Below are positions 1,420 to 61,500 of a stretch of 64,000 bases of DNA, in pieces. Source of the DNA: Tridacna crocea (Eukaryota; Mollusca; Bivalvia; Cardiida; Cardiidae); the NCBI GenBank assembly GCA_943736015.1, contig OX031064.1, forward strand, positions 34,523,361 to 34,587,360, in the 5' to 3' direction. Made by a program: the position numbers and the translations under genes. A model generated the notes under the pieces. The model did not search any database and was not told where the DNA came from. It worked only from the letters and a program-made list of their open reading frames with translations. Position 1 is the stretch's first letter; each line of letters begins with the position of its first letter.

Positions 1420-1649
1420 TTAACCCATTACCAAACAATCCCTACTTTTGACGACCCTGAGAAAGAGGCCTTTAGAAAACATTGTGGGAAAGGGAGAAAA
1501 TGCTGGTAACCAGCATTTTCTCCCTTTCCCACAATGTTTTCTACCCTTCACAAAATAAATCTCAAATTTTCAGTCACTTTTATTCTGTCGTCTGCAAATG
1601 CTCTCGATTTGGACAAGACTAAAATTCTGTCGTTTGGTAATGAATTCAA
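1420..1649 (+). mobile_element. PBM-A MITE
   Basis: Left TTAA 1420-1423, right end mutated to TTCAA. The stem variant GGAAAGGGAG is matched by CTCCCTTTCC in the other arm. Confidence 0.88.
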
Positions 1650-5871: not shown

Positions 5872-6113
5872 TTTAGCTCTTTACCAAAGGGCAACATGTT
5901 AGACTGGCCCAAATTGAAAGTACAACAGACTTGCAGACAACAAAATAAAACATAACTCAAAAATTGAAATTAATTTCCAACAGGGTAGAAAATATTGCGG
6001 GAAAATGAGAAATTGCTGTTTACCAGCATTTTCTCATTTTCCCACAATGTGTTCAAAAGGGTTCTATCTCATGGTCGCAAAAATGAGATCAGGAATTGTT
6101 TGGTAAATGTTAA
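5872..6113 (-). mobile_element. PBM-A MITE, diverged
   Basis: Left TTTA, right TTAA 6110-6113. The stem has GAAAATGAGAAA paired with TTTCTCATTTTC, another two-sided change. Confidence 0.8.
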
Positions 6114-7128: not shown

Positions 7129-7354
7129 TTAACCCATTACCACACAATCCCTACTTTTGAGGACCCTGAGAAAGAAGTCACTAGAAAACATTGTGGGAAA
7201 AGGAGAAAATGCTGGTAACCAGCATTTTCTCCCTTTCCCACAATGTTTTCTACCCTTCACAAAACAAATTTAAAATTTCGCTCACTTTTATTTTGTCAAG
7301 CAAATGCTTCCGAATCGGACAAACCTAAAATATAGTCGTTTGATAATGAGTTGC
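7129..7354 (+). mobile_element. PBM-A MITE
   Basis: Left TTAA 7129-7132, right end TTGC. The stem arms differ by one base (AAAAGG versus CCCTTT). Confidence 0.88.
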
Positions 7355-8600: not shown

Positions 8601-8850
8601 AAAAAATAATTCAGCCTCTACTAGACAATCCTAATCGAGCCCATATTCACCAACCATTCTTAAGAACGTTCTTTGTCTTATTCTCCAGAATTTTCTACAT
8701 TTGTAAGTAACACAGCTGCCAGTATTTCTCATTTTCCCACAAAGTTTTTACAAGCCGTCTTTAAAAGGCTCGTAAAAACACAAAATTTTGTACGAACGGA
8801 TGAACCAGTTGACACTGACTTGTATGAATGCAGATCAATATCAGAAAGCA

Positions 8851-9035
8851 TATTCACCAACCACTCTTAGGAACATTCTTAGTTTTATTCTTCAGAATTT
8901 TGTCAATGTGAAAGTAACAGAGCTTCTGATCGGCTAAACCATTTGGTTTAGCCAATCAGATGTTCTGTTACTTTCAGATTTAAAAAATTTTGAAGAACAA
9001 GACAAAGAATGTTCTTAAGAATGGTTGGTGAATAT
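8851..9035. repeat. Family C palindrome (TATTCACCAACCA ends)
   Basis: A near-perfect inverted repeat of about 90-bp arms: TATTCACCAACCACTCTTAG outer end, GTAACAGAGCTTCTGATCGG inner, and centre AAACCATTTGGTTT. The right end is TGGTTGGTGAATA. Confidence 0.85.
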
Positions 9036-9204
9036 GGACCCATCTGATCTTTGCCGATACTGTTTGCTTATTAAGTTATGTTTTCAGCGAAACCTTTTCA
9101 GTGAAGCCTTTAAAAGGCTCGTAAAAACACAAACTTTTGTACAAAAGGGTTAAGCAGTTGACACTTAATGCAGACCAATATCAGAAAGCATATTCGCGAG
9201 GTCA

Positions 9205-9404
9205 GTATTCACCAACCATTCTTAAGAACATTCTTGGTCTTGTCCTTCAAAATTTTGTCAATGTGAAAGTAACAGAACTTCTGATGGGCTAAACCATGAG
9301 AAGGTAACAGAACTTCTGATTGGCTAGACCATTCGGTTTAGCCAATCAGAAGTTCTGTTACTTTCACATTGACAAAATTTTGAAGAACAAGACAAAGAAT
9401 GTTT
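9205..9404. repeat. Family C palindrome with internal duplication
   Basis: Same element as 8851-9035. GGTAACAGAACTTCTGAT occurs twice in the left arm (9265 and 9306). The right end is truncated at about 9404. Confidence 0.8.
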
Positions 9405-13908: not shown

Positions 13909-14319
13909 TTAAGTTAAAGAACTCAGAAAGTTATTTCTTTGTTTCGTTGCATGGAAAATAAATTTACCTAAATTAATCAGAACTGATTTATTCCTTGTAT
14001 TTAGAAGATTGACGAACTTTAACATACTGGGCCTTGTTCGATAAAATTTCTTAATAAACTTTACTCTTAAATCTTGAAAAACTTTACAAACGAGAATAAA
14101 ATGAAATTCGTCTTCTATTTCTGGTTCGTTACAAAACTGACACAGTCGTTCGTTTCGGGGTGATCTATTTGGTCCATATCTGCCGGATTCTATTCGAAGT
14201 TTATGTGAAGATAATCTGATTTTTGATAGACAAGTTCTAAATGTTCTATTATATAGTAAATCAAGAGAAGGGGCCATTTCGAAGGAACTTACTAAATGTA
14301 AATACAGATGACATAACAA
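13909..14319 (-). pseudogene. LINE ORF2 C-terminal fragment with zinc-knuckle (CxxC...HxxxxC)
   Basis: The translated minus strand shows the C-terminal tail typical of non-LTR retrotransposon polyproteins: a basic region (LRIESGRYGPNRSPRN), then LCQFCNEPEIEDEFHFILVC, a C-x2-C...H-x4-C zinc-binding pattern (zf-RVT type), followed by DLRVKFIKKFYRTRPSMLKF and a stop. Upstream reverse transcriptase sequence is absent: the 5' side is cut near 14400 where a PBM element begins. It is therefore a 5'-truncated, dead copy. The clade (Jockey/CR1/L2-like) was not resolved. Confidence 0.75.
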
Positions 14320-14405
14320 AGTACTATTTTCAAGATCTGATCGTAATTTCTGGAGAAAACAATCAATATATTATAGCGATTCATTAACTGTTCTGTTCTG
14401 TTCCA

Positions 14406-14609
14406 TTAACCCATTACCATTACCATTCAATCCCTACTTTTGACGACCCTGAGAAAGAAGCCCTTAGAAAACATTATTGGAAAAGGAGAAAATGCTGGTA
14501 ACCAGCATTTGCTCCTTTTCCCGCAATATTTTCTAACCTTTCCAGAACGATCTTCAGAATTTAAGTCACATTAAACTCGTTGTCTTCAAATGCTTTCAAT
14601 TGGATAAAC
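14406..14609 (+). mobile_element. PBM MITE, first half of a dimer
   Basis: TTAA 14406-14409 left. The long arm uses AACCTTTCCAG and CACATTAAACT, a variant shared only with the next copy. It stops at GGATAAACC without a terminal TTAA. Confidence 0.82.
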
Positions 14610-14828
14610 CATACAATCACTATACTTTTGGCGAACCTGAGAAGGAAGTCTTTAGAAAACATTGTGGGAAAAGGAGAAAATGCTGGTAACTAGCATTTTC
14701 TCCTTTTCCCATAATGTTTTCTAACCTTTCCAGTACAATTTCTAGAATTTTTGTCACATTAAACTTGTTGTCTACAAATTCTTTGAATTCGGATAAACCT
14801 AAACTTTTGTCGTTTTGCCATACATTAA
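14606..14828 (+). mobile_element. PBM MITE, second half of a dimer
   Basis: Begins inside the short arm (ACAATCACTATACTTTTGG) directly after the first unit; right TTAA 14825-14828. Same long-arm variant. Confidence 0.82.
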
Positions 14829-16737: not shown

Positions 16738-16965
16738 TTAACCCTTTCCCAAACGACACATTTTGGACTCTTCCAAACCAAAAGAGTTTGCAGACGACAA
16801 TTTTAAATTTGGAGAAAATGTCAGAAAGTTCTCAAAAAGGGTAGAAAACACTGTGGGAAATGGAGAAATTGCTCGTTACGAGCAATTTCTCCTTTTCCCA
16901 CAGTGTTTTCTAAAGACTTTTACTGCAGACACGTAAAAACAAGGGCTTGTGTGGGAAAGGGTTAA
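16738..16965 (-). mobile_element. PBM-B MITE
   Basis: TTAA at 16738-16741 and 16962-16965; tip CTCGTTACGAG; stem ACACTGTGGG with CCCACAGTGT. Confidence 0.93.
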
Positions 16966-17193
16966 CCCTTTTCCATACAATGACGATTTTTGACAACCCT
17001 TGGAAAGCAGCCTTTTGAAAACTTTGTGGGAAAAGGAGAAATTGCTGGTAACCAGCATTTTCTCCTTTTCCCACAATGTTTCCTACCCTTTCAGTAAAAA
17101 AAAATTGCACCATTTGAGCCACGTAAAAATTGTCGTCTGCAAATGCTTTCAATTTGGACAGGACTTAAATTTTGTCGTCTTGTTCAGGGTTAG
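16962..17193 (+). mobile_element. PBM-A MITE sharing a TTAA
   Basis: Uses the right TTAA of the PBM-B copy as its left flank; right end TTAG. The long arm carries TGAGCCACGTAAAAATTG, a variant also seen at 43451. Confidence 0.9.
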
Positions 17194-22727: not shown

Positions 22728-22958
22728 TTGACCCTTTCCCAAACGACAAATTTTGGACTCTTCCAAACCAAAAAAAAAAATTGCAGACAACAATTTAAGA
22801 TTTGGAGAAAATGCCAGAAAGTTCTCAAAAACGGTAGAAAACACTGTGGGAAAAGGAGAAATTGCTCGTTACGAGCAATTTCTCCTTTTCCCACAGTGTT
22901 TTCAAAAGACTTTTACTGCAGACACGTAAAAACCAGAGCTTGTTTGGGAAAGGGTTAA
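22728..22958 (-). mobile_element. PBM-B MITE
   Basis: Left TTGA, right TTAA 22955-22958; tip CTCGTTACGAG. An A-tract expansion lies in the long arm. Confidence 0.92.
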
Positions 22959-26581: not shown

Positions 26582-26734
26582 ATATCGTCGGTTTGCTTCC
26601 AAAACCTCGTAACTACAGCTTGTTACAAGGTTTTGGAAGCAAACCGACGATATGGTCGGTTTACTTCAAAAACCTCGTAAATACATCTTGAGACAAGCAA
26701 TAGTTACGAGGATTTTTAAGTAAACCGACGATAG
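26582..26734. repeat. Two adjacent hairpins, family H
   Basis: ATCGTCGGTTTGCTTCCAAA pairs with TTTGGAAGCAAACCGACGAT (26582-26653). A second, CGGTTTACTTCAAAAACCTC with GTAAACCGACGAT, follows at once. Single copies occur at 31957 and 41348. Confidence 0.88.
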
Positions 26735-32104: not shown

Positions 32105-32333
32105 TTTACCCATTACCACACAATCCCTACTTTTGACGTCCCTGAGAAAGAAGCCATTTGAAAACACTGTGGGAAAAGGAGAAAATGCTGGTAACCAGCA
32201 TTTTCTCCTTTTCCCACAGTGTTTTCTATCCTTCCCAGAACAAATTTCAAATTTTCAGTCACCTTTATTTTGTCGTCTACAAATGCTTTCAATCTGGACC
32301 AGCCTAAAATTTTCTCGTGTGGTAAAGAATTAA
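32105..32333 (+). mobile_element. PBM-A MITE
   Basis: Left TTTA, right TTAA 32330-32333. The stem has ACACTGTGGG matched by CCCACAGTGT. Confidence 0.91.
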
Positions 32334-41286: not shown

Positions 41287-41347
41287 GACATGTACTTGAC
41301 TGTGCTGTAATTATAGGCTGATCCAAATTATAAACATTTGTATACAA

Positions 41348-41434
41348 CATGTCGTCTGTTTACTTCAAAAACCTCGTAACTACAGCTTGTTTCAAACTGT
41401 AGTTACATGGTTTTTGAAGTAAACCGGCGTTATG
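41348..41434. repeat. Hairpin, family H
   Basis: GTTTACTTCAAAAACCTCGT AACTACAG pairs with CTGTAGTTACATGGTTTTTG AAGTAAAC. Confidence 0.85.
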
Positions 41435-42344
41435 TTGTGTTTATCGAATTGCAAAATCTCTGCTGTGGATAAATGAGGAAATACCGGCTGCCAGTACTTT
41501 CTTATTTTCCCACTTTGTTTTCAACAGCATACCTTCTTGGGGTCGTTAAAATCGTTGATTCAACGAAATTCAGGGTATTTTTTGTGCATCGATTGTGAAG
41601 CAACTTCTTACAGCTTAAATCAATGACTCTTGGTGTTTTCTTCCCAAAATCCACCTAGTAGGTTACTTGCACATTATGGCGTCAGAATACGGTCGACAGC
41701 CGCAGCCCTGTTACATCGTTCGTTTACAACAAACAAACAAACAAACAAAAAGCTTAATTTCTTTCCCAAAGATATGCCAAAATAAATAAGTTCATCATTG
41801 TCCCAAATTGGGAGGAAAACGTAAAAAAATGTCTGATACTTTTGGCTAGGGACTAACGGCGCCTAACCTTAGTAACCACGTTTCAGACTTTTGCATGAAA
41901 GCTGCAACCACTCTCAACATCATGTATAAATGCACTCTATTCGCTGTCTCCGATTTGCTGGAACTGCAACTGCCGTTTCTTATTGGCTTGAAACGACACA
42001 CCCCTCAAAACCGCCTTACACTTTACGAGTTTTTCATTCGTGATGTAAAGTACACGACGAAAGAACGGGCTGTTTTTATATTTGCCGAGAAATTGTACAA
42101 GAAAATTTATTCACAGCAAGAGTATTTAACGATGTTTGTTTGCGTGATGAGTTTTAAATGAGAACCCTTAAAACAGGAAGAAATTCTCCCATTTATTTCA
42201 CCAAATACTCATTTAGAGCATGACACAACCAACATCCGCGTTGACCTCGGGTCGTTGCTGTGTGCACACCTTTGGAGGTATATGGAACGTGGCGTAATTG
42301 GTATTTGATTTATAAGACTTGTATGGTGTGTATCCAATTGCTTT
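41435..42344. other. No gene seen; PBM-like remnant near 41460-41570
   Basis: GAGGAAATACCGGCTGCCAG and TTATTTTCCCACTTTGTTTT recall a PBM stem. (CAAA)n lies at 41727-41748. An 88-codon open frame at 41895-42161 has no splice support. Confidence 0.45.
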
Positions 42345-42438
42345 ACATATATCGATGGGTGAGTGAAACACTATTCCAAGTGCCTGTACATTGTAGATGC
42401 ACTTAGAATAGTGTTGCACTCGCCCATCGATATATGCA
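42345..42438. repeat. Long hairpin N, about 38-bp arms
   Basis: CATATATCGATGGGTGAGTG AAACACTATTC pairs with GAATAGTGTTGCACTCGCCC ATCGATATATG; loop about 15 bases. Single copy here. Confidence 0.88.
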
Positions 42439-43842: not shown

Positions 43843-44072
43843 TTAACTCTTTACCACACGATGAAAGTGAAAACTTGTCAAAATTGAAAGCATTTGCAGA
43901 TGACAATTCAAACGTGTATCTGGTGACGGTACTTGTCTTTGATAGGTAAGAAAACATTAAGGGAAAAGGAGAAAATGCTGGTTACCAGCATTTTCTCCTT
44001 TTCCCTTAATGTTTTCAAAAGGCCTCTTCCGCAGGGGTCGTTAAAAATCGGGATTGTGTGGTAAAGAGTTAA
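43843..44072 (-). mobile_element. PBM-A MITE with two-sided stem change
   Basis: TTAA 43843-43846 and 44069-44072. The 33-bp arms (43950-44016) pair perfectly although CATTAAGGG/CCCTTAATG replaces CATTGTGGG/CCCACAATG. Confidence 0.94.
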
Positions 44073-44256: not shown

Positions 44257-44485
44257 TTAACCCTTTACCCCATAAGGCATTTCTATGGTATCTATAGTTG
44301 ATCCTAAATAACAGCAAGGATGAAGCTGTTTCTTATGTGCATATGACACCTTTTGATAGCATAGAAAATATTGTGGCAAAAGGTGAAATTGCTCGTCACG
44401 AGCAATTTCACCTTTTGCCACAATGTTTTCCAAAGGCTCCTACAAACAATGCGTTAAAATGAGTATCTATGGAGTAAAGGGTTAA
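44257..44485 (-). mobile_element. PBM-C MITE, full hairpin
   Basis: TTAA 44257-44260 and 44482-44485. Stem GTGGCAAAAGGTGAAATTGC with tip CTCGTCACGAG; arms match. Confidence 0.93.
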
Positions 44486-45604: not shown

Positions 45605-46375
45605 CAAGAGGACCATGATGGCCCGGAAATCGCTCACCTGAGTCTATTGACCAAACATGAACCATTTTCAACCTAGTTTTCCAGTGACCTAGTTTTTTTT
45701 TATCAGACATTACGCATTATCAAACATTTTTGAGATATCAATAAGACAAACATTCTGAGCAAGTTTCATGAGTATTGGACTGAAAATGTGGCCTCTACAG
45801 CGTACAAAGGGTGTTTTCTAAGATTTGACTAAGTGACCTAGTTTTGGACCTAACAATTACCCATTATCAGTCTGATACCCTGAAACTTGTTCATAATATT
45901 TGTCTTGGTGATACCTTGAATGAGTTTGAAAATGGGTCGTGTGGAGTCAAAAACTAGACCAATGAGTCAAATATTAAAAAAACCTTGTGTACACTCTAGA
46001 GGCCATATTTTCTGCCTGGTACTCTTCAAACTTGGTCAGAATGTTTGTTTTGATTTGACCTAGTGACCTAGTTTTTGACCCGACATTACAAATTTTCGAA
46101 CTCGTCCAAGATATAATCGAGCCAAAAATTCTGACCAACTTTCATTAGTATTGGACTGAAAATGTGGCCTCTAGAGCGTACACAGGGTTTTTCTAAGATT
46201 TGACCTAGTGACCTAGTTTTTGACCCGACATGACCCATTTTCGATCTCATCCGTGATATCATCAAGGCAAACATTCTGATCAACTTTAATGGGTATCGGA
46301 CTGAAAATGTGGCCTCTAGAGCGTACACAAGGTTTTTCTAAGATTTGACCTAGTGACCTAGTTTTTGACCGGACA
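45605..46375 (+). repeat. Satellite-like array, about 145-bp unit (GACCTAGTGACCTAGTTT)
   Basis: The motif GACCTAGTGACCTAGTTTTT recurs near 45682, 45828, 46057, 46200 and 46346, with AATGTGGCCTCTAGAGCGTA between. It opens with AAGAGGACCATGATGGCC, a bivalve-type repeat start. Confidence 0.88.
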
Positions 46376-46438
46376 TGTTTTCAAAAGGTTTTATACTTCA
46401 AGGGCGTCAAAACTCGGGATTATGTGGTAAAAGTTTAA
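46376..46438 (-). mobile_element. PBM half copy
   Basis: Only ATGTTTTCAAAAGG and the short arm to TTAA 46435-46438. It joins the satellite array at the hairpin edge. Confidence 0.75.
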
Positions 46439-48046: not shown

Positions 48047-48257
48047 TTAACCGTTTACCACACAATCCCGACATTTAACGATCATGAGGAAGAAGACTTT
48101 AGAAAACAACTTGGGAAAAGGAGAAAATGCTGGTTACCAGCATTTTCTCCTATTCTCAAATTGTTTTCTACCTATCCTAAGACAACTTTTTGTAGTATGG
48201 AAGACGGAGCTTTCACTTTGGACAAGCCTACAATTCCGTCGTTCGGTAAAGAGTTAA
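48047..48257 (+). mobile_element. PBM-A MITE
   Basis: TTAA 48047-48050 and 48254-48257; shortened long arm. Confidence 0.87.
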
Positions 48258-49655: not shown

Positions 49656-50340
49656 AGAAATAAATGTGGCCTCTAGAGTGCCCATAAGCTTTTTCTTTAA
49701 TTTGACTCAGTGATCTAGTTTATGACCCCAGGTGATCCAATTCAAAACCTATCGGATATTTTATCAAGACAAAAATTCTGACCAACTTTCAAGTCAAATG
49801 ATCAAGAAATATGGGCTAGACAGTTCTCTTAAGGTATTTCTTAAATTTGACTAAGTGACCTAGATTATGATCCCAGGTAACCCAATTTTGAACTCATACC
49901 AGACTTTATCAAGACAAATATTTCAATCAATTTTCAAATCAATCAACAATAAATGTGGCCTCTAAAGTGGTTACAAGGTACATGTACTTCTGTAATTTGA
50001 CCTAGTGACTTAGTTTATGACCCCAGTTGACCCAAATTTAGACTCATGCGCAATGTCATCAAGACAAATATTCTGTCCAATTTTCAAGTAAATTTCTCAA
50101 AAAATTTGGCTACTACCAGGCCCACAAGGTATTTCTTTTATTTGACCTAGTGACCTAGTTTATGATCCAACATGATCCTATTTCAAATTCATCAAAGATT
50201 TGATCAAAGAAAACATTCTGACCAATTTTTAAGTCATTTGAGCAACAAATGTGGCCTCTAGAGTGCCCACAAGGTATTTCTTTAATCTGACCTAGTGACC
50301 TAGTTTCTGACCCCAGATGACCCAAATTCAATTTCACTGA
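49656..50340 (+). repeat. Satellite-like array, about 147-bp unit
   Basis: GACCTAGTGACCTAGTTTAT near 49703, 49850, 50000, 50144 and 50290; the same family as 45605-46375. Confidence 0.88.
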
Positions 50341-55419: not shown

Positions 55420-56400
55420 TCACTGTATAAGACTACGTAAGGCTTGTTACCTGCAATTTTGACTCAAAAATAAATAGAGATCCACTTGGATGAATCTAAA
55501 TTCAAAGTATTACAGTTCTAAGCCTTTCTGTTTGGAACAAGAAGTTTTTTGGGACTGGCATTAGCCCTACCCCTTGGTGCTGGTAAAGAATGAAAAGATG
55601 GTAATTTGTGATTGGTAAAAATATAAATGTATTTGTTTGGAGGATGCTTGCTGGCATATATACTCACAATTTATGAAACCACTTTTATAGGAGTTGCAAC
55701 GGCCAACTGATTCCTCAGAGCCTTGATTCATACAATAGCAAATTAAAGTAAAACAGAATGGTCCTTTTTTGTTCAACATGCATTTGGAAATTCAGTATTT
55801 CAACATCATAAATGCCAATAACTTAATATAACTTATCAACCAAGTAAAAGCAGTGAGGAAAAATAGGCACACTCTTATAGGGTAAATAGTCCTTATTCTA
55901 TTTCATATTGAGCCGCAAATGAACTACACTATTCATATTCAAGTACCTCTTACACTATCTTTGTTAAAGATATTTCTTGTTCCAAGATTTTACTATTTTA
56001 GCCCCTGTAAAATTTGTGACCCTGACAGCTGGGCATTTTTGACCTGATCATTCAAACATACTTGGAAGAATCTCCACCAGATAATACAATTAATAAAAGA
56101 TTATTTACGAATATTACAGCCCTAAGCTTTTTGGTTTGGAAGAGGAAGATTCCCAATATTTTCACTCTACTAACCAATGTAAAACTCGTGATCCATGCAG
56201 CAGACCAATTTTGCCCTGAGAAGTATCATTTGAGCAAACTTTGTAAAAGCCCCAAAGATAAAGCTCATTGCAAAATTTGGTTGCCCTAGGCCTTGTAGTT
56301 CTGGACAAGAAGACTTCAACAGACCTACTAATTTTTCACTATTTCATTGCCATTGCCATGGGAGAATTGTGAGGAATTTATCAATTTATCTTTTTAACAC
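55420..56400 (+). repeat. Degenerate 164-bp-type satellite units
   Basis: CTAAGCTTTTTGGTTTGGAA, AATTTTGCCCTGAGAAGTAT CATTTGAGCAAAC and CATTGCCATTGCCATGGGA fit the family at 58-61 kb. Confidence 0.6.
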
Positions 56401-56609
56401 ATTTGAAAAAAAAAAAACCCTGACAACTTTGCTGAGAAGTTTAGTTGTGATAGGTCTGTGGTCTAGGAGCAGATAGATATAGAATTTGATAACAATGAAT
56501 GGCAGAAACTGGGCAATCACAAAAGTCCATCATGGGCATTCTGGGCTTGGATGAGTTAAAAAGTCAAATAGTGAATTAGTCGAATAGTGAAAATAAATGG
56601 AAATTACAG

Positions 56610-56800
56610 CAGTACCAAACAATAACATGTTTTGACAGCCCTGAAAAAAAAGGCTATCAGTAACACTAGTAAACACTAGTAACCAGCATTTTCTCCTTTT
56701 CCCAGTGTTTTCTAATTTGTAGAAGACAAATCCCTTTATTTCTGCCACAAATTTATCCTTGCAATTCCTTTTGATATAGAACTGTCTAAAATTTTGACCT
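56610..56800 (+). mobile_element. PBM remnant
   Basis: AACACTAGTAACCAGCATTT TCTCCTTTTCCCAGTGTTTT with a reduced left arm. Confidence 0.65.
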
Positions 56801-56856
56801 CTCCTGTACAATTAAAACTTCATGATTTTATACCAGTGGGTCTTGTGCAGCCCTTC

Positions 56857-57098
56857 CTACACTGATGTGGACTGTGGCCAGTTTGTGCGTCTGTTGCTAT
56901 CCTTGGACACAGCTCCTCCCAATAGCTGTTTTGTTGCAATCATGTGCCTCTTAAAGGTATCTTTTACAACCTGGTTTCGTCTCACATCATTATTAACAAC
57001 ATGTAGGTGAAGAACTGAATCTGGATGGCGTGTACATGACAACGTTAAACGATCTAGAAGAACATCTGCACATTGTTTTGGGTCTGAATATCCTGCTC
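56857..57098 (-). CDS. Exon of an unrecognised protein, possibly C-terminal with STSV end
   Basis: The acceptor CTTGTCTTTTTCTAG precedes an open segment from 57098 to a TAG at 56859-56857. It encodes about 79 residues beginning (x)GAGYSDPKQCADVLLDRL, continuing TLSCTRHPDSVLHLHVVNND, then VRRNQVVKDTFKRHMIATKQ and ending NWPQSTSV. The composition is that of a folded, soluble, alpha-helix-rich domain and differs from the flanking repeats. If terminal, STSV is a class I PDZ-ligand-like C-terminus. Alternatively a donor in TCAGT then GTAGGA at 56860 would splice on before the stop. The exon begins with two bases completing a codon. The family is not recognised. No partner exon was established, and the region to the left is a degenerate PBM copy and satellite units. 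Confidence 0.5.
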
Positions 57099-57509
57099 CT
57101 AGAAAAAGACAAGTCATAGTCAATACAGTTGGTCTTAGTGACCATCTTTGTTCAGCAAGTTAAATGTGTTAAAGGCTCAGTGTGGGTCAGAAGCAAATAG
57201 TACAGATGTTAAAATGCAACTGTAATTAATTTATACATGTACATGTACATGTACTATTAAAATCCAGAGCTACCGCTAAAGTTGACGAACACCCCTCACC
57301 TGGTCTATGTCAAGAAATAACTTTTTGTCAAAGAAATGCAAAATGCCTAAGTCCAAAGAGTTAAGAGACTATTACACAGCTAATAAATACTGAAACAAAA
57401 TAAAGAAACTTTGAAAAGGAACCTGAAATGGGCTCCTCTTCCATACCCCTCATGATGCAATGCACTCTGCTCACCAAGATTTCTTTTCATGAATTCTGTG
57501 GATAACTGC

Positions 57510-57736
57510 TTAACTCTTTACCACAATCCTGACTTTTAACGACCCTGAGAAAGAAGTCTTTTGAAAACACTATGGGTAAAGGAGAAAATGCTGGTAACCA
57601 GTGTTTTCTCCATTTCACACAGTGTTTTCTACCCTTCCTAGACCACATTTTAATTTTTCAGTCACCTTTATTTTGTCATCTGCAAATGCTTTCAGTTTAG
57701 ACTGGTCTAAAATTTTCTTGTGTGGTAAAGGGTTAT
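57510..57736 (+). mobile_element. PBM-A MITE
   Basis: TTAA 57510-57513 left, TTAT right; stem with ACACTATGGG and CACAGTGT. Confidence 0.88.
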
Positions 57737-57954
57737 ATCTTTTAAAAAGATATCACTTTACCAGCATATGGGTATAATTACTGAGCAATAGAGTCAACAA
57801 TAAAATCAATCAATGTGCCACAACTCATTGGAAAATCATTCAACATCTTAGGTTTGTATTAAAACTTCCTATGAAGTCTGAAATCCATCATGTAGTTATT
57901 GAGTAATAGAGAGGACATGAAAATTCATGGAAGGAACATAACTCCTTTAACAAA

Positions 57955-58633
57955 AGAGGGCCATGATGGCCCTGTATTGCTCTACTGGCTAATAAGTAAA
58001 AACATAACGAGCCAAACATTACAGTATTTGGCTAATTGGTTTCAAACTTGAATACATACAATTTTTTTTCTACAAAAACCTATGAGAAAGTTATGACCCC
58101 CAGGCAAGGTCAATTTTGACCACAAAGCTATAATCACTTGAATCCTGGTGGAGGGCCACAAGATTATGTCCCATACCAAATAATACAGGTCTAGAATGTG
58201 TGGTTATAAACAAGAAGATTTTCAAAGTTTTCTCAATAAAAGGCCCTGTAAAACATGAGACCTATAAGACAGGGCTAAATTTAGTAGCCATATCATGGTT
58301 AGTAACAAGATGACTTATAAAGTTTTCACCACAAAAGCCCGTGTAAATCTTGAGACCCCTGGTGTGGGGAAAAACTTGACCCCAAGGCTATAATTTGGGC
58401 CCTCCTTGTAGAGGCTCACAAGATAAAGCTACATGCAAAATCTGGTAGCCCCAGGCCTTATGGCTAGGTACAAGTAGATTTTTAAAGTTTTCCCAGTATG
58501 AGCCCATGTAAAACTTGTGACCCCCAAGATGGGTCCAAATTTGATCCCAGGGCTGTAATTTGGGCACACATGGTAGACAACCATTTGATAAAGCTAGATG
58601 CCAAATTGAGTAGCCCTAGGCCCTAAAGCTTGG
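57955..58633 (+). repeat. Satellite-like array, about 163-bp unit, part 1
   Basis: Starts GAGGGCCATGATGGCCCTGT; CTTGTGACCCC-type motifs near 58095, 58255, 58350 and 58515. Interrupted by the transposon at 58637. Confidence 0.82.
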
Positions 58634-58636
58634 TAA

Positions 58637-59787
58637 CCCCCCGATCTCACAGACGCCGATTTCCAAAATAATCGTAGTGCTTCGGGAGAGCGCATTTTCT
58701 CCGATTTACCACGAATTCAAGCCGTTTTTCTCCGATCATCCTTGGACGAGGGGTATTTTTAGACATACATCGGTGTGTTCCCGATGGGCTGCGAAAAACT
58801 ACGATGCGATACGATTTACTACGCTATTGCCCCAATTTTGTTCCGAAGTACGCCGAGTTTAGGAGCCGAGTTACTACGAAGCAGTACGATCTTGACCGAT
58901 TATCCTGATTTCTTACTACGATGGACTACGATGCACAAAGATTTACTGCGACATACGCCGACAGATCTGAATCGACTACGAGTTTCAAATCTTATTTCAG
59001 GATTATGCCCCGACTTCGTCCAATGGGTATAAATTCCGTGATTAACAGCAAAAAAACCCAGTTATCATGTTGATATTAGTCGTCATCCTCCAACTCATTT
59101 TGCAGGACAACTGGCTGATCCGGAATAAAATCAGGGTCAGGTTAGTTCTATGTGCTTAATGGTGGAGCTTGGGTGCTCGATGGAGGAGGTATATCTGTTG
59201 TAGCTGACTGCTTTTCCAAGTTCGAAAGCCCCCTTTTTGGTCCCATTGTATCGAAGTATAGGGAAATGTCTCGTTCAAAGGTTGGAAAAAATCTGCAAAT
59301 GAATCGTTTTCAAAGTTGATTTGCCTTTTTATACCAATCAAAATTCGGGGTACTTCGTAGTACTACGGGATGATATCTTAGCAGTTCGTACTTAATCGTT
59401 GTAGGTCGGTGTAGCTCGTGATGCTAGTTGCGTATCTCGTCGTAGTTCATCGGCAAGAATCGGGAGTTACTTGTAGTGCATCGGCGTTATTCGGGGTTCA
59501 TCGCCGAGGTAGGTACGCCGAAATAGGACCGAATAACGCCGATTTGCTTACTACGAACAACAACGACTTAGTACGAGGTACACCGAGGTGCGCCGATTTC
59601 GGCACGATTTTCCAAATCGGGAGAAAAATTTGCGCATGTTGAAATTTTTGTCCTGATTTATTTTTGATCCCGAATTGATGCCGATTTGAGTCAGGAGGCA
59701 CTACGGCTGTCCCGAAGCTAGCCGATTTCGCACCGATTTTGAAATTTTCGAAATCAGGATTAAATCGGGGTCTGTGAGACCGGGGGA
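58637..59787. mobile_element. 1.15-kb CpG-rich DNA transposon with TAA flanks
   Basis: Ends CCCCCGATCTCACAGACGCC GATTT and, read inward from the right, CCCCCGGTCTCACAGACCCC GATTT. TAA lies on each side (58634-58636, 59788-59790). The interior is packed with TACGA, ACGCCGA and TACTACGA motifs and has no transposase. TAA duplication hints at PIF/Harbinger, but the class is unproven. Confidence 0.8.
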
Positions 59788-59790
59788 TAA

Positions 59791-60370
59791 GAGAAAATTT
59801 TTAAAGTTTTCCCTATGTAAGCCCATATAAAACTTGTGACCCCCAGAGCCAGCCCAATTTTCACCCAAGGACTATAATTTGGGCACTCTTGGTAGGAAAC
59901 CACCTGATGAAGATACATGACAAATTTGGTAGCCCAAGGCCCTATGGCTAGGTACCAGAAGGATTTTAAAGTTTTCCCTATATAAGCCCATGTAAAACTT
60001 GTGAACCCCAGGGCAGAGCCAATTTTGACCCCTGGACTATTATTTGAAAGAACTTGGCAGAAGTCTACTAGATAACGCTACATGCCAACTTTGGTAGCCC
60101 TAGGTTTTATGGTTTCAGACAAGAAGCTTTTCAATGATTTTCAATATTTTTCAGTTTTGTTGCCATGGCAACCAAAGTTTTTGAAGGAATCAAATTCTTT
60201 CAAGGAATTCTGAAAAGGATCATGGCAGGATCCTTTCTGTGAAGTTTCATCAAAATTGGATGGGTAGTTTCAGAAAAGAAGATGTTTGAAATAAAAGTTA
60301 ACGCATACACGGACGGACGGATGCACTGACTGACGTACATGGACACTGGGCCATGCCATAAGCTTGCTGG
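59791..60370 (+). repeat. Satellite-like array, about 163-bp unit, part 2
   Basis: CTTGTGACCCCCAGAGCCAG (59837) and CTTGTGAACCCCAGGGCAGA (60000) continue the array; ends with GCATACACGGACGGACGGAT. Confidence 0.82.
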
Positions 60371-60574
60371 CCTTTTGCCTGTGGAGCTGAACATCATTCA
60401 ATCATAATGAAATTATACAATGCATATTTTGGCTTCATATAAAAACTTTCTATGAAATTTGACTGAAATCAGTTCAGAAGAAAAAATATATGAAAGGGCT
60501 GTAACTCATTGGATAAGAGGGCCAAGATGGCCTATTATCGCTCAACTGGCTTATAAATTGATTGATTATATGGT

Positions 60575-60690
60575 GTTATATGGTGTTAAATGCCATTTTC
60601 AACATTATTTCAGTTATACTGTGGCAGTCAGTGCACCTATCCATGCATATCATGGTCGAAACAATGGTCAGCTGTGGGAGAGGAATGAAT
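60575..60690 (-). mobile_element. SINE body fragment
   Basis: ATATGGTGTTAAATGCCATT TTCAACATTATTTCAGTTAT matches the tail and body of the SINE at 51683. The tRNA-like head is missing. Confidence 0.45.
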
Positions 60691-60779
60691 CTTGTTGCAA
60701 GAACATCATGGCAAGATGATATCTGTAAAGTTTGGTCAAAATTGGAAGAGTGGTTTCAATAAATTTCACTACATAAGCC

Positions 60780-61500
60780 CATGTAAATTTTTTACCCCTG
60801 GGGTGGGGTCAAATCCCACCCTTGTGCTATAATTTTGGTACTCTTGGTAGAGGCCCACCACATAAAGCCACATACAAAATTTGGTAAACCTAGGCCTCAT
60901 GACTTAGTACAGGGAGATTTCTAGAGTTTTATCTATATAAGCCCAAATAAAAATTGTGACCCCTGGGGGCTGGCCAATATTTTTTACTGCAGGGCTATAA
61001 GTAAATTTGACCACGAGGCTATAACTTGGGCAATCTTGGTAGAAGCCTACTAGATAAAGCCACATGCAAAACTTGGTAACCCTAGGCCATGTGGCTAGGA
61101 AGATTTCTAAACTTTTCTCTATATAAGCCCATGTAACACTTGTGACCCCCGGTGCGGGGTCAAATTTGACCCCAGGGCTATAATTTGAAGAAATTGATAG
61201 AGGTCTACTAGATAAAGCTACATGCCAAATTTGGTAGCCCTAGGCCCCATGGTTTCAGACAAGAAGATTTTCAAAGATTTTCAATATTTTTAAGTTTTGT
61301 TGACATGCCAACCAGAGTTTTTGAAGGAATTAAATTCTTTCAAGAAATTCTGAAGAGGACTATGGCAGGATCATTTCTGTGAAGTTTCATCAAGATTGGC
61401 TAGGCAGTTTCAGAGAAAAAGATGTTAAAAAAAAGTTAACAAACAGATCGTCGGATGGACACACGACGGACACTGGGCCATGAAATAAGCCCCCTGGCCT
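60780..61500 (+). repeat. Satellite-like array, about 163-bp unit, part 3
   Basis: Motifs near 60790, 60955 and 61140; ends with ATCGTCGGATGGACACACGA CGGACACTGG. Confidence 0.82.

Follow-up and report, generated by a model that had tools for sequence, protein, structure and literature searches.

Matched stem changes in an abundant TTAA-flanked MITE of Tridacna crocea are probably for the most part inherited subfamily marks

MITEs of the piggyBac superfamily are the closest described counterparts of the element analysed here, with which they share TTAA on both sides, small size, a lack of visible coding capacity and a very high copy number. CCCTTT-type ends beside TTAA, which we take to be those of piggyBac, are likewise common to both. 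A 67-nt palindrome in the middle of the element is not known to be a defining feature of this superfamily's MITEs. Foldback-type and long-hairpin transposons also contain a strong internal inverted repeat, although the hairpin described here is internal and short, and the outer arms of the element are non-complementary beyond about 15 terminal bases. Template switching is a further process known to reshape such structures, and two reports describe arm homogenisation together with spacer inversion, in yeast (PMC8604942) and for RNA hairpins and genes (PMC8794818). Quasipalindrome mutation as outlined there predicts both outcomes; an excess of T/A switches at the centre of the present hairpin fits that prediction, whereas most of its stem changes are uncorrected and the link between centre flips and matched changes is not robust.

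The window, meaning the whole 64-kb stretch of DNA that was analysed, contains 63 copies of the MITE in both orientations, as identified by an iterated profile search with a threshold of at least 50 bits. The consensus is 222 bp long, flanked by TTAA, with the ends TTAA-CYCTTTACC...GGTAAAGRG-TTAA. We sampled 20 further stretches of 10 kb (200 kb, all from contigs C1 to C4) of the source genome, which comprises 1.05 Gb in 31 contigs, and combined them with the window to obtain 219 copies. Where the end of the copy was reached, TTAA was present at 81 of 113 left ends, at 78 of 107 right ends and at both ends in 43 of 63 copies, against a background of 6.3 percent of random 12-base stretches. The 200-kb sample holds 156 copies, corresponding to 0.78 copies per kb and 14.6 percent of bases; extrapolated from this sample, the genome may contain some hundreds of thousands. 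Judged by its ends, the element is a piggyBac-like MITE. It is rather probable, taken jointly with the subfamily explanation given below, that it represents a high-copy, non-autonomous DNA transposon with TTAA target sites, piggyBac-like ends and a 67-nt central palindrome. No Pfam match was found in the four window ORFs tested, which lie outside the focal MITE, and the hairpin core had no match in viral contigs or in a set of bacterial and archaeal genomes. Some copies directly adjoin one another, in opposite or equal orientation (14417-14818, 16741-17189 and 453-887).

The focal copy occupies 43847..44068 on the forward strand (profile match 43846-44066, ends read directly), between unstranded TTAA target-site copies at 43843..43846 on the left and 44069..44072 on the right. 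Its terminal inverted repeats are about 15 bp long (CTCTTTACCACAC.../...GTGTGGTAAAGAG), and the hairpin lies mid-element. This hairpin, a 67-nt palindrome, has two 33-bp arms around an unpaired centre base, which is T in the orientation used. In the focal copy it spans 43950..44016 (+), with arms at 43950-43982 and 43984-44016 around the centre T at 43983, and forms a perfect 33-bp stem carrying the diagnostic variant CATTAAGGG/CCCTTAATG.

From this and other variants, the initial annotation had proposed that stem changes generally come in matched pairs. The letters that it quoted are indeed found at every copy cited (the focal one, those at 16738, 32105, 1420 and 5872, and subfamilies B and C), though these are a selected set. 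Elements starting near 16738 and 32105 have the variant CACTGTGGG/CCCACAGTG. The hairpin at 32160..32226 (−) carries C-G at pair 8 (CACTG/CAGTG) in a perfect stem. Subfamily B (CTCG/CGAG) is represented at 16844..16910 (+), with C-G at pair 8, T-A at 26, C-G at 31 and one mismatch, at pair 18, and at 22837..22903 (+) by a perfect stem. The hairpin of the 1420 copy (1475..1541, −) has a matched change at pair 18, AAAGGGAG/CTCCCTTT, and that of the 5872 copy (5987..6053, +) one at pair 19, AATGAG/CTCATT, along with several other pairs that are mismatched. In the subfamily C hairpin (44364..44430, +; GGCAAAAGGTG/CACCTTTTGCC), pairs 14, 21, 26 and 31 are changed and matched, and the centre is C; its states are also present outside the window, with T-A at pair 21 in 8 of 124 copies and C-G at pair 14 in 7 of 124. 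The hairpin at 48102..48168 (−) combines matched changes at pairs 8 and 10 with a G.T at pair 9 between them and a centre flipped to A. A left-arm change at pair 18 is common to 1475-1541, 2569-2636 and 7184-7250, where its partner is matched, accompanied by an extra base, and unchanged, respectively.

Counted over all copies, matched changes are the minority. The 2079 cells of the stem alignment for the 63 window copies comprise 1617 in the consensus state, 215 one-sided changes, 37 two-sided paired, 9 two-sided unpaired and 201 gapped. The 124 copies from the 200 kb elsewhere gave 587 one-sided, 82 matched and 41 two-sided unmatched changes, and a further 30 copies, kept from 44 once 7 query hits and 7 copies with poor coverage had been set aside, gave 125, 14 and 1. 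One-sided changes are thus 5 to 7 times commoner than matched ones in the window and 124-copy sets, and they fall equally on the left and right arms (143 versus 139 in the 54 window copies kept after 9 of the 63 were dropped for poor coverage). Only 5 of these 54 well-covered copies have a perfect stem. An alignment of copies that sets stem covariation against single-arm change, the check proposed with the original claim, therefore contradicts it as a general statement (215 one-sided to 37 matched changes in the window, 587 to 82 elsewhere).

Two-sided paired cells are nevertheless more frequent than in shuffles (27 versus 5.8; 47 window copies in a MAFFT alignment), and 20 of the 27 are located in pairs 8, 26 and 31 (10, 4 and 6), where 19 of the 20 coincide with subfamily states. 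The same pairs provide the commonest matched states among the 180 copies that remained when 39 of the 219 had been dropped for poor hairpin coverage: C-G at pair 8 (20 copies), T-A at 26 (19) and C-G at 31 (18), followed by T-A at pair 21 (9), C-G at 14 (8) and T-A at 6 (6). In this sample G-C at pair 18 occurs in one copy and T-A at pair 19 in two. Outside pairs 8, 26 and 31, the private matched cells of the 47 window copies number 7, against 1.85 in shuffles (p 0.0018), and same-copy co-changes in the window number 9 at the true register, against 0 to 7 across 20 slid registers.

Shared descent was taken into account by comparing pairs of copies on a flank-based tree, the pairs being chosen on paths without a shared branch. 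The 22 independent pairs of the window differ on one side at 145 stem pairs, on both sides with a match at 8 and on both sides otherwise at 18; for 57 pairs from the 150 copies kept for the tree (69 of the 219 dropped) the counts are 343, 19 and 42. Matched differences are 19 of the 61 two-sided ones in the 57 pairs (31 percent), which is the share that unlinked, random second changes would give. Correction between the arms would bring matched two-sided changes within copies up to the frequency of one-sided ones; one-sided changes outnumber them by 215 to 37 over the window copies and by 343 to 19 over the independent pairs. General evolution by matched pairs is thus rejected by the one-sided excess in the window, the 124-copy sample and the independent pairs alike. 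In the 18 closest pairs, 46 differences are one-sided, and the two-sided ones, of which 0.9 would be expected, comprise 3 matched and 2 others. Partner columns co-change 74 times in the 150 copies, about 2.3 standard deviations above the 60.2 expected from non-partner columns. Tree-based expectations for the window were drawn from subsets of 47 and 41 copies; in the 47 copies partner co-changes number 17 against 7.0, and a weak 9 against 5.8 once pairs 8, 26 and 31 are left out. True double events may occur at a low rate, in view of the shuffle excess and register count in the window and of the closest pairs.

Selection on an RNA folded from the hairpin, for example a small-RNA precursor, could be suspected from the long, near-perfect consensus stem and from the matching of inherited changes. 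Such selection would tolerate G.T above A.C, and the symmetry of the palindrome makes the chances of the two equal. One-sided transitions lead to G.T and A.C 232 and 198 times in the 180 copies (p 0.11) and 56 and 48 times in the window (p 0.49), and Rfam gave no match in the window at gathering thresholds. With neither a G.T preference nor an Rfam match, selection at the RNA level, one of the causes first suggested, is rejected or unsupported, and on the sequence evidence we regard it as extremely unlikely.

Which stem variants are inherited was determined on the tree built from the flanks, where a variant counted as inherited if the number of copies carrying it exceeded its changes on the tree by at least 3 (54 copies) or at least 5 (150 copies). 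The 150 copies contain 6 inherited variants in the 67 hairpin columns, against 85 in 155 flank columns, and these six correspond precisely to the two sides of pairs 8, 26 and 31. The 54 window copies contain 4, both sides of pairs 8 and 31, against 60 in the 155 flank columns. The recurrent states at pairs 14 and 21 are absent among inherited variants on that tree, which leaves out copies with short flanks. The comparison with the flanking arms thus bears out the original claim in part, since the inherited stem variants are scarce and matched, but individual copies decay one arm at a time. As for the arms outside the hairpin, which had been stated to drift without pairing, the consensus gives them no complementarity beyond the terminal repeats of about 15 bp, so they have no pairing to retain.

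Because a tree built from the flanks favours inheritance in the flanks, one arm was held out as a control. On the left-arm tree of 48 copies, the inner branches of the hairpin total 0.14, or 13 percent of the 1.05 measured for the right arm, and its end branches 3.56, or 52 percent of 6.88; on the right-arm tree of the same number of copies, the corresponding shares of the left-arm length are 16 and 38 percent. Dividing inner by end branch length gives 0.153 (right arm) and 0.040 (hairpin) on the former tree, and 0.099 (left arm) and 0.043 (hairpin) on the latter, with 48 copies in each case. These ratios indicate that the hairpin is conserved mostly in lineages that multiplied. Some process keeps the stem paired in those lineages, either selection acting on the source elements or template switching at a low rate. 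Not only the pairing of the hairpin but also its sequence is conserved, so its role is equally likely to be sequence-specific or purely structural.

The focal variant was followed further by searching the source genome with 131 bases around 43950, where 40 of 2567 first-look candidates were scored. This yielded at least 41 full matches, with identities between 96 and 100 percent, and the best 28 of these, the window copy included, were read. A-T is kept at both pairs 10 and 11 in 23 of the best 28, four have G.T at pair 10 and one has A.C at pair 11; 16 of the 28 hairpins are identical. The 14 stem cells that differ among the best 28 are all one-sided and none is two-sided, a divergence that is understated because these matches were chosen for similarity. 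The G.T at pair 10 in four of the 28 is possibly a one-sided intermediate. As 23 of the 28 keep both pairs, CATTAAGGG/CCCTTAATG is a subfamily mark rather than a private correction. The alternative raised alongside the original claim, that the variants are only old subfamily differences, thus largely holds for the focal variant and for pairs 8, 26 and 31, while the 1420 and 5872 variants fall outside that demonstration.

We consider it probable that the matched stem differences are mostly inherited subfamily marks, the stem being kept in source lineages and decaying freely after insertion. This reading builds on what the copies show: they are numerous and flanked by TTAA, one-sided changes are in excess, few stem variants are inherited, and both the focal variant and the states of pairs 8, 26 and 31 mark subfamilies. 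A source element would gain a paired change and multiply, producing many copies with an identical matched change; after insertion, both arms would mutate independently and one-sided mismatches would accumulate. The stem would be kept by selection on source elements if an intact palindrome is needed for, or aids, mobilisation, and we infer that double changes would be reached via one-sided steps. Selection on mobility is most likely what maintains the stem in source lineages. The causes originally advanced, selection on folded DNA or RNA or correction between arms, accordingly find no support as processes acting in individual copies, and what stands is narrower, namely that all clearly inherited stem variants are matched.

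Arm-to-arm correction by template switching during replication, in which one arm is copied onto the other and the spacer sometimes inverted from T to A, has to be weighed in the light of the behaviour of the centre base, where such inversion would yield a T/A excess. The centre has 8 T/A switches on the window tree, more than any other of 140 A/T-majority columns (next 7), and comes first, with 7 to 8 switches, in all 200 of the 200 bootstrap trees used for the window. It also ranks first of 141 columns in the 150 copies (19, next 15) and first of 142 outside the window alone (12, next 11), but its lead narrows to 21 against 20 at 174 copies. T to A accounts for 19 of 27 centre changes, compared with 377 of 1049 changes from T elsewhere (36 percent; p 0.0003). 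The excess is to be read with the close flank columns in mind and with the absence of any pairing constraint on an unpaired base; the centre switching may also be an artefact of assembling or sequencing a perfect palindrome. Of 9 pairs with a centre flip, 6 also show a matched arm difference, against 7 of 47 without a flip (p 0.003; 57 pairs, 56 scored), and the mechanism itself is described in PMC8604942 and PMC8794818. At 174 copies, however, the association weakens to 5 of 8 against 12 of 55 (p 0.028), with a median p of 0.17 over 40 jittered pairings, and flips also go with unmatched two-sided differences (p 0.017); at the level of copies the association has p 0.14. The link between centre flips and matched arm changes is not robust.

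The hairpins at 1475, 2569 and 7184 resemble corrected, part-corrected and one-sided states, and form a candidate series of correction states. The unconstrained tree does not unite them; a single clade with a one-sided ancestor is not rejected (AU p 0.078). Against correction as the main process, one-sided mismatches dominate, perfect stems are confined to 5 of 54 copies, and the 28 focal-subfamily copies show 14 one-sided and no two-sided changes. We therefore hold it to be distinctly unlikely as the explanation of the matched differences, and template switching to be a minor or unproven contributor. A bolder proposal, which we put forward tentatively and think unlikely, is that template switching is frequent across these MITE hairpins, perhaps hundreds of thousands per genome, inverting the centre and now and then copying one arm onto the other.

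Gene conversion between copies could move whole hairpins or arms and flip the centre, given that a palindrome pairs in either orientation. The density of copies (0.78 per kb, 14.6 percent of the 200-kb sample) would favour such exchange. Pair 8 recurs on the flank tree, with C on the left in 23 copies by 10 changes and G on the right in 31 copies by 15 changes, and a one-sided right-arm G at this pair is found in three separate copies of the window. The same pattern is produced by repeated mutation and by an uncertain tree, though, and most stem variants are scattered, one-sided and unshared. Inter-copy exchange is thus very unlikely to account for the matched differences, but it could blur the inheritance of stem variants.

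Subfamily structure in a multi-copy element can mimic stem covariation, and independent pairs, slid partners and the separation of inherited from scattered variants are means of telling them apart. Under the favoured reading of inherited subfamily marks, the contrast between a near-frozen stem in source lineages and later free decay suggests that the palindrome matters for mobility. With copies estimated at 0.8 per kb, the family also offers many identical hairpins at which spacer inversion and correction of the arms could be gauged; if frequent template switching were true, it would amount to a natural record of spacer inversion across a eukaryotic genome.

Other repeats are present in the window. 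The ORF at 13909-14370 (−) gave no Pfam match up to E 0.1 and presumably resembles the tail of a mollusc-type non-LTR retrotransposon. Long inverted repeats lie at 8849-9036 (93-nt arms, 2-nt spacer, 87 percent) and 9227-9403 (69-nt arms, 39-nt spacer, 96 percent), and a palindrome with 45-nt arms and a 1-nt spacer at 42346-42436. A second kind of hairpin occurs in two copies, at 41344-41438 and 26651-26733, with GTTTACTTCAAAAACCTCGTAA-like arms in common, and repeats that are dispersed or in tandem, their units measuring about 145 and 165 bp, are found at 46012-46386, 49659-50328 and 56207-61257.
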